Assembly (NCBI RefSeq): GCF_004339245.1
Contig: NZ_SMGG01000004.1
Coordinates: forward strand, 310,001-374,000
Source of the DNA: Seleniivibrio woodruffii
GTDB lineage: Bacteria; Chrysiogenota; Deferribacteres; Deferribacterales; Geovibrionaceae
DNA length: 64,000 nt
Direction of reading: 5' to 3'
Made by a program: the position numbers and the translations under genes. A model generated the notes under the pieces. It had not been told where the DNA came from. It searched no databases and saw only the letters and a program-made list of their open reading frames with translations. Below are positions 2-1,598 of this stretch, one piece after another; within the stretch, counting starts at the first letter, position 1, and each line of letters starts with the position of its first letter.

Positions 2-895
2 ATAGAGCATTTTTCAGTTGATTCGGCTGTAACAAAGCTTATAAATGACGGCTATGAGATAACCAAGCTCAGAGTCGACAACACAGGCCTTGTTAACCCT
101 GACGACCTGAAAAAAGCCCTCAGAAAAGATACTGTGCTGGTTTCCATTCAGCATACGAACCCTGAGATCGGTACTGTTCAGTACACAGACGCTCTGGGCG
201 CAATATGCCGGGAGAACAACGTTGCTTTCCATGTTGACGCAGTTGCGGCTGCGGGTTTTTCTGAGCTGGATGTCAAAGCGCTTAACTGCGATATGCTCTC
301 CATTGCATCGCAGAATTTCTACGGACCCAAAGGTGCGGGCGCACTCTACATAAGAGACGGCATCAAACTCAGCGGACTGCTTGACGGCGGACATCAGGAA
401 AGAGGCTACAGAAGCGGAACAGAGAACGTTCCAGCTATAGTTGGAATGGGTGAGGCGGCTCGCATCGCAAAGGCCGAAATGGGCGTTTGGGTTCCCGAGC
501 TTGTAAGCCTCCAGAAAAAACTCTGGGACGGGCTGGGCGGAATGTTCGACTTCCTGCACTTCACAGGAAACAAGGACAGACGCAGACCCGGACACGTCAG
601 CTTCTGGATTGAGTATATCGAAGGCGAATCACTGCTCATGTGGCTGTCGCTTAAAGGCTTCGCATGCGCCAGCGGATCTGCCTGCTCCTCCAACATTCTG
701 GCGGAGGACGAGGAAGATCTCGCCGCATCATACGTTCTTACAGCGGTAGGCGTTCCCAACGACATCTGCGCAGGTTCGCTCGGTATGTCTATGTCGAAAT
801 ATAATACTCAAGACGACATCGAAAACGTCCTGAAAGTTATGCCGGAAACGGTTCAGAGACTGTGCGAAATGTCGCCTATGTACAACAGAAAGTAG
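2..895 (+). CDS. IscS/NifS-like cysteine desulfurase homologue lacking the PLP lysine (5' end outside window)
   Basis: The reading frame is open from base 2, so the N-terminus lies upstream. The protein is a class V aminotransferase-fold homologue of IscS/NifS. It keeps NPEIGTVQ, the FHVDA motif, YGPKGAGALY, the GGHQERGYRSGTENV segment and the mobile-loop cysteine in ASGSACSS. The usual S-x-H-K site that holds PLP reads A-S-Q-N, so the Schiff-base lysine, the neighbouring histidine and a phosphate-binding serine are all absent. The late Arg-x-Ser is Gly-Met-Ser. Classical PLP-dependent desulfuration is therefore doubtful. iscU and nfu follow directly, which points to a role in Fe-S assembly, perhaps as a scaffold partner or sulfur carrier (inference). 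A catalytically normal paralogue could lie just upstream. Confidence 0.85.
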   Translation: MEHFSVDSAVTKLINDGYEITKLRVDNTGLVNPDDLKKALRKDTVLVSIQHTNPEIGTVQYTDALGAICRENNVAFHVDAVAAAGFSELDVKALNCDMLSIASQNFYGPKGAGALYIRDGIKLSGLLDGGHQERGYRSGTENVPAIVGMGEAARIAKAEMGVWVPELVSLQKKLWDGLGGMFDFLHFTGNKDRRRPGHVSFWIEYIEGESLLMWLSLKGFACASGSACSSNILAEDEEDLAASYVLTAVGVPNDICAGSLGMSMSKYNTQDDIENVLKVMPETVQRLCEMSPMYNRK

Positions 896-922: not shown

Positions 923-1357
923 ATGGCTAAAGGACCTTACAGCGATAAAGTTATGGATCATTTCATGAACCCCAGAAACATGGGCGAAATAGAGGGAGCA
1001 AACGGAGTAGGGGAAGTCGGCAACCCCGCATGCGGCGACGTCATGAAGATCTTCCTTAAGATAAATGACGACCAGATAGTTGAGGATGTTAAATTCAAAA
1101 CTTTCGGCTGCGGCGCGGCTATCGCATCCAGCTCCATGGCAACAGAGCTTATGAAAGGCAAAAAAGTTGAGGAACTGCTCGCCCTGACAAATCAGGCCAT
1201 CGTAGATGCCCTTGACGGACTGCCCCCCGCTAAGATACACTGTTCTGTAATGGCTGAAGAGGCCATCGAAGACGCACTTAAAAACTACTTCATATCAAAG
1301 GGTCAGGATCCTGCGATTATTGAAGAGATGAAAGCAAAAATAAAGAAAGAGAATTAA
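923..1357 (+). CDS. iscU: IscU/NifU-type Fe-S cluster scaffold
   Basis: 144-residue scaffold protein on which [2Fe-2S] clusters are built before transfer to apoproteins. The three ligand cysteines are visible at Cys37 (NPACGDV, with the conserved Asp39), Cys63 (TFGCGAA) and Cys107 (KIHCSVM). The length is that of a short IscU with no NifU C-terminal extension. A strong AGGAGG ribosome site lies 4-13 bases before the ATG. It sits 27 bases after the IscS-like gene and 13 bases before nfu, so the three are one transcription unit. The usual LPPVK chaperone-contact motif is replaced by LPPAK, so recognition by HscA would be weaker or absent; no hscA/hscB is seen here. Confidence 0.93.
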
Positions 1358-1370
1358 CGGAGGATACAAA

Positions 1371-1598
1371 ATGAGCCTTAGAGAAAGAGTAGAAGAAGTT
1401 CTGGATCAGGTTAGACCCACCCTTCAGGCTGACGGCGGAGATATCACTCTGCTTGACGTTTCAGAAGACGGCGTAGTAAAAGTTCAGCTGACAGGCGCTT
1501 GCGGCTCCTGCCCCTTCAGCACCATGACACTGAAACACGGTGTTGAGGCAAGACTGAAAGACATGATTCCTGAAGTTAAGGAAGTTCTTTCCATATAA
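1371..1598 (+). CDS. nfu: Nfu-type Fe-S cluster carrier (NifU C-terminal domain)
   Basis: 75-residue stand-alone Nfu domain. The CGSC motif (Cys44, Cys47) would bridge a [4Fe-4S] cluster between two subunits. The N-terminal LQADGGDI segment is typical of the family. In many bacteria this domain is fused to the end of NifU; here it is a separate gene right after iscU, with its own GGAGG site at the junction. It is last in the operon and is followed by a clear intrinsic terminator. Role: delivery of clusters to target proteins (family knowledge). Confidence 0.92.

Follow-up and report, generated by a model that had tools for sequence, protein, structure and literature searches.

A lysine-less IscS homologue encoded beside IscU in Seleniivibrio woodruffii represents a bacterial clade spread over many phyla

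We analysed a 64,000-nucleotide stretch of the Seleniivibrio woodruffii genome (contig NZ_SMGG01000004.1, positions 310,001 to 374,000 of the forward strand), referred to here as the window. The window opens inside a gene for an IscS homologue, of which codons 99–395 lie at positions 2–895 on the plus strand and the 5′ end lies upstream, at G000:C4:309708; the full gene (G000:C4:309708-310895) is intact and encodes 395 amino acids. An initial annotation of this DNA had drawn attention to the loss of the PLP lysine, and the frame confirms what it described. At the S-G-H-K site the protein reads A-S-Q-N (305–316, plus strand), with Ala200 in place of Ser203 (family positions are given in Escherichia coli IscS numbering), Gln202 in place of His205 and Asn203, encoded by AAT at 314–316, in place of the PLP lysine Lys206. 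The glutamine of the HVDAxQ motif, Gln183, is replaced by Ala180 (GCG, 245–247, plus strand). As was also claimed, the catalytic-loop cysteine is retained: Cys326 (TGC, 683–685, plus strand) aligns with the persulfide-forming Cys328. Residue alignment revealed two changes beyond those described earlier, Pro152 for Asn155 (161–163, plus strand) and Gly359 for the conserved Arg354 (782–784, plus strand), and placed Ser103 (14–16, plus strand) at the position of Ala106. The equivalents of His104 (His101, 8–10, plus strand) and Asp180 (Asp177, 236–238, plus strand) are kept, as is that of Thr76. The Cys loop carries an acidic extension, NILAEDEEDLAAS (692–730, plus strand), which makes it about seven residues longer than in IscS and which was found in members of the Deferribacterota only.

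The ATG of iscU follows the iscS stop after 27 bp, at position 923, the spacing given by the initial annotation. This gene (923–1357, plus strand) encodes the only IscU scaffold of the genome, with its three Cys ligands, the Asp and the His all kept, and it is followed by a gene for an Nfu-type cluster carrier, recognized by a match to the NifU C-terminal domain (1371–1598, plus strand). A search for SufB/D that was positive in 14 of 14 control genomes found neither in the window genome. Four lysine-bearing relatives are encoded elsewhere: C3:702731, with iscR and cysE; C5:113743, with mnmA; C5:333592; and C3:520202, which is CsdA-like and has YeeE/YedE-like and rhodanese-like genes close by. 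From the translations only, the region around the last of these (G000:C3:515000-526000) holds the CsdA-like gene, two YeeE/YedE-like transport genes, a rhodanese-like gene and a molybdopterin oxidoreductase-like gene, and is possibly an inorganic sulfur locus.

The initial annotation had proposed looking just upstream of the window for a normal nifS paralogue. The gene found there is a degenerate ASADH/USG-1-like one (L009:5903-6712, G000:C4), which overlaps iscS by 4 bp and whose product weakly matches the USG-1 homologue 2hjs. We rejected it as a candidate sulfur donor, because its product is a divergent ASADH/USG-1-like protein without a conserved Cys and the gene is missing in several relatives. 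TusA and DsrE2 are both missing from the isc operon of the window genome, and a TusA-family search of that genome gave a single match elsewhere, a longer YedF-like open reading frame at C3:1034865, which disposes of a TusA beside isc. The YedF-like frame (L144:3851-4438, G000:C3) is 195 amino acids long and lies a few genes from hydrogenase-maturation-like genes.

The best matches of the protein, both by fold and among PDB sequences, are IscS, NifS and Nfs1. A predicted model of L073, a close Seleniivibrio homologue that stands in for the window protein and scores like a 94%-identical homologue of the same genus, has an IscS fold (pLDDT 90.3; TM of about 0.9 to IscS/Nfs1) and matches the Nfs1–ISCU2, E. 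coli IscS–IscU, IscS–TusA and Archaeoglobus fulgidus IscS–IscU entries. The Cys loop, residues 326–340, is the only segment of the model with pLDDT below 50, and the acidic extension is its least confident part. With E. coli IscS, Nfs1 and NifS the window protein shares the fold, the loop Cys, His104, Asp180 and an IscU neighbour; they differ from it as PLP enzymes with Lys206, Gln183 and Arg354, all three present in 38 of 38 lysine-bearing sequences. Thus, of the hallmarks of group I cysteine desulfurases, the window protein has the IscS fold and the loop Cys, and lacks the PLP lysine together with His205, as well as Gln183 and Arg354. It also falls below the NCBIfam cut-offs (415 bits versus 531 for NifS, and 359 versus 643 for IscS). 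The curated models that best match lysine-less proteins all bear the name cysteine desulfurase, so the sulfur metabolism of genomes that carry such proteins is likely to be misread. On these features, the encoded protein, although IscS-like in fold, has very probably ceased to be a PLP cysteine desulfurase.

Close homologues occur in 43 of 51 Deferribacterota genomes; two others have nothing closer than a distant relative that bears the lysine, and the last six returned nothing above the cut-off. Whether the Asn is fixed in this group had been posed as a check, and the answer is clear: each of the 43 distinct Deferribacterota sequences that we examined has it at the PLP-lysine site (41 QN, 2 TN); these sequences were drawn from the 51-genome search and a genome-contig scan. 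Within the genus, dN is 0.03–0.10 and dS 1.0–1.6 (dN/dS 0.03–0.06), and these ratios indicate that the gene is under strong purifying selection. An assembly error or a pseudogene, for which we found nothing in favour, can hardly account for one residue in 43 of 43 sequences together with low dN/dS, and we reject it with near certainty. The gene order birA-coaX-rodZ-(ASADH-like)-iscS-iscU-nfu is largely kept in the order, with the ASADH-like gene present in much of it. Across the Deferribacterota, G049 and G050 alone gave SufB/D matches. IscU is a single-copy gene, except that some g15 genomes yielded additional weak matches and three genomes showed no IscU. Nearly all of the order shares the arrangement of a lysine-less IscS beside the only IscU in a genome without SufB/D. 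Within that order, genus g11 (G031 and G032; loci L176 and L060) has iscR-iscS-iscU with a lysine-bearing IscS in place of the lysine-less operon, indicating that the lysine-less form can be replaced.

The genome-contig scan, which returned 80 loci, also found lysine-less IscS beyond the Deferribacterota, ruling out a restriction to that group. Records come from the Chloroflexota, Thermodesulfobacteriota, Myxococcota, Elusimicrobiota, Nitrospirota, Actinomycetota, Omnitrophota, Margulisiibacteriota and Aminicenantes; outside the Deferribacterota they are mostly metagenome-assembled genomes, and with taxonomy taken as titled or classified, the protein is spread over about eight or more phyla. 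The initial annotation had suggested a bacterial case of a PLP-free IscS: bacterial it is, but a single case it is not, because the clade spans many phyla.

Alignment of lysine-less and lysine-bearing sequences exposed a consistent residue signature. His104 and Asp180 are invariant in 95 lysine-less and 38 lysine-bearing sequences, and the Thr76 equivalent is present in all 95 of the former. Position 328 is Cys in 38 of 38 lysine-bearing and 94 of 95 lysine-less sequences, the remaining one having a gap and no sequence having another residue. Gln183 and Arg354, by contrast, are kept in every lysine-bearing sequence (38/38) and survive in 2 and 0, respectively, of the 95 lysine-less ones; Asn155 and Ser203 are lost in most of these, and the losses at Lys206, His205, Gln183 and Arg354 co-occur. 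Position 106 is Ser in 57 of 57 bacterial lysine-less sequences and Ala in 32 of 32 lysine-bearing ones. Extra loci from one Chloroflexota order divide in the same way, into 18 lysine-less (the higher-scoring matches) and 9 lysine-bearing (the lower-scoring ones), leaving uncounted the frames L255, L270 and L271, which did not align; one lysine-less sequence of this set has Val at position 183. No substitute active-site lysine is conserved among the aligned lysine-less sequences, in which the only strongly conserved lysine, Lys84, is one that is common in normal IscS too and absent from A. fulgidus IscS.

In IscS, His104 and Asp180 contact PLP, and with both retained the protein may still bind a ligand of some kind, PLP held non-covalently included. 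One could accordingly suppose that the protein is still a PLP enzyme, working through non-covalent PLP or another lysine, and the equivalents of His104, Asp180 and Thr76 in all 95 sequences would fit this. In E. coli IscS, the K206A variant is reported to hold some PLP but to have no desulfurase activity (PMC9978102), which cuts both ways. The same source reports that variants at His104, Asp180, Gln183, Lys206 or Cys328 lose desulfurase activity, so loss of the lysine or of Gln183 should abolish desulfuration. The R354K variant was still active (PMC9978102), so that the Arg loss counts through the non-conservative nature of the residue that takes its place. Given the loss of Arg354 in all lysine-less sequences, of Gln183 in nearly all and of Asn155 and Ser203 in most, with no conserved lysine to take over, we regard a surviving PLP enzyme as very improbable. 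The proposal of the initial annotation that this is a PLP-free partner of IscU is supported in that the residue losses and the IscU adjacency agree with it; the absence of PLP is itself inferred from sequence.

Lysine-less IscS proteins were reportedly known before from two archaea. The initial annotation had compared the window gene with A. fulgidus IscS, and the comparison is sound: in IscS 2 of that archaeon (PDB 4eb5, 4eb7 and 4hvk; D199K mutant 4r5f), whose sequence we verified by an exact match to 4eb5, the lysine is likewise replaced, His205 is Asn, Gln183 is Ala, Arg354 is Leu and Ala106 is Ser, so that the losses at the Lys, His, Gln183 and Arg354 positions and the A106S change are common to both. 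Like it, the window gene has lost the lysine, kept the loop Cys and lies next to an IscU gene; the archaeal protein, too, pairs with an IscU. The A. fulgidus protein differs in having Asp at the lysine site, where the bacterial proteins have Asn or Gln, in being archaeal and in lacking the acidic loop extension. A tree built without the diagnostic columns recovered one bacterial lysine-less clade (support 99/95) with A. fulgidus IscS outside it; its rows had been reduced manually, and three lysine-bearing rows on long branches were omitted after a first quick tree. Forcing A. fulgidus IscS inside the bacterial clade gave an AU p of 0.285, so this constraint stands unrejected. A. fulgidus IscS is reported to be without desulfurase activity and to contribute a cysteine as ligand of the cluster on IscU (PMC7585200), and the same report describes Methanosarcina acetivorans IscS1 as lacking the lysine and encoded with an IscU; the likeness of the latter is known by description, and the protein went to inclusion bodies in that paper (PMC7585200).

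The archaeal precedent lends itself to a model, the one put forward for A. fulgidus, in which the bacterial loop Cys only ligates the IscU cluster and never carries sulfane sulfur, sulfide being the source. The shared residue signature, the reported behaviour of the A. fulgidus protein and the unrejected single origin all speak for it, as does a report that, in anaerobic E. coli lacking IscS, H2S can stand in for it in IscU-dependent assembly (PMC13015791). The gene neighbourhoods, however, weigh against it. Of 51 lysine-less loci outside the Deferribacterota, 45 have IscU nearby, 27 have TusA and 21 have DsrE2. Of 39 lysine-bearing loci, 17 have IscU, one has TusA (L081, which also holds a lysine-less gene) and none has DsrE2. 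The Fisher values of 1e-7 and 1e-6 assume more independence than there is, the loci being related and the sample non-random. An earlier count with a cruder gene caller had been lower (15 TusA and 10 DsrE2 genes). Pfam matches confirm the DrsE_2 and TusA identities, and the partner IscU proteins retain their cluster ligands, except in incomplete or misaligned frames. The linkage of these sulfur-carrier family members in many phyla is something that a sulfide-only model does not need, and we consider a purely ligating Cys rather unlikely. That the lysine-less IscS works with IscU is highly likely.

A further possibility is that the protein is a pseudoenzyme subunit or regulator that pairs with, or hands IscU to, a lysine-bearing IscS, which would charge the Cys or IscU. 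Lysine-bearing IscS proteins are indeed present in the window genome and in most lysine-less genomes, in some cases in the same gene cluster as the lysine-less gene (L081, L099, L106, L114 and L123). Yet in 5 of 30 lysine-less genomes the single IscS-type match is the lysine-less gene itself. A wider aminotransferase-V search brought up SGHK proteins in G057 and G065 and no lysine-bearing desulfurase in G053, G061 or G071, genomes for which completeness is not given. In the Chloroflexota order, G082 has the lysine-less gene only, G114 and G120 add just one aminotransferase-like protein, and G111 and G132 carry fragments that are possibly lysine-bearing IscS. Genome searches thus found no PLP cysteine desulfurase in G082, G053, G114 or G120 (completeness not given), of which G114 is nearly a single contig (1.12 Mb, for a genome listed as 1.1 Mb). 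The operon in G053, G082 and G114 consists of lysine-less IscS, IscU, DsrE2 and TusA. With several lysine-less genomes, G114 included, lacking a detected lysine-bearing relative, an accessory role of this kind seems improbable.

The explanation that we favour overall, with some reserve, is that the lysine-less IscS is a PLP-free platform whose Cys would carry sulfur to IscU or ligate the nascent cluster on IscU. Lysine-less IscS would dock IscU in the manner of IscS, and its loop Cys, unable to charge itself, would accept sulfur from another protein or from sulfide and relay it, or would alternatively ligate the cluster as it forms; the Cys probably has one of these two functions. IscS dimers are reported to bind IscU and TusA at the same time, each at a site of its own from which Cys328 can be reached (PMC11302665). 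The addition of DsrE2 and TusA to the operon in many Chloroflexota, Thermodesulfobacteriota and others makes it likely that, there, a DsrE2/TusA persulfide would pass to the lysine-less IscS Cys and on to IscU. Such a flow, if true, would reverse the usual direction from IscS to TusA. In the window organism, the operon has neither carrier gene, and the probable source of sulfur is therefore sulfide, or else a lysine-bearing IscS that is encoded at another locus and acts in trans; with four such relatives present, a relay route is only conjectural in this genome. The earlier idea of another sulfur donor thus gains from the TusA/DsrE2 linkage and from the genomes without a detected desulfurase, and loses in that neither gene is in the window operon. 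A broader generalization, that bacterial Fe–S assembly widely uses a DsrE2–TusA relay (or sulfide) to charge the Cys of a PLP-free IscS for IscU, with cysteine not the immediate source, we put forward tentatively.

Taken as a whole, the lysine-less IscS forms a bacterial clade over many phyla and is the operonic partner of the sole Fe–S scaffold in nearly a whole order, which suggests that Fe–S clusters are built there without cysteine desulfuration at the IscS step. The TusA/DsrE2 linkage offers a testable route for non-cysteine sulfur into the Fe–S clusters of anaerobes. Assembly without a dedicated cysteine desulfurase is likewise described for the sulfide-fed minimal system SMS (SmsCB; PMC12192291), which differs in using an unrelated SufBC-type scaffold, the window genome being without SufB/D. 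The archaeal proteins being already known, it is the bacterial clade and its DsrE2–TusA linkage that appear to be new; we found no account of either in the open-access papers searched, judged mainly by titles and the openings of abstracts, which is weak evidence of absence.

Other genes also recur near the lysine-less gene. In four Endomicrobia loci (L098, L101, L110 and L117), the lysine-less IscS–IscU pair adjoins flavodiiron-like and rubrerythrin-like genes, and three of the four have a desulfoferrodoxin-like gene. A gene for quinolinate synthase NadA, a [4Fe-4S] enzyme, lies near the lysine-less gene in L099, L104, L109, L123 and L128.
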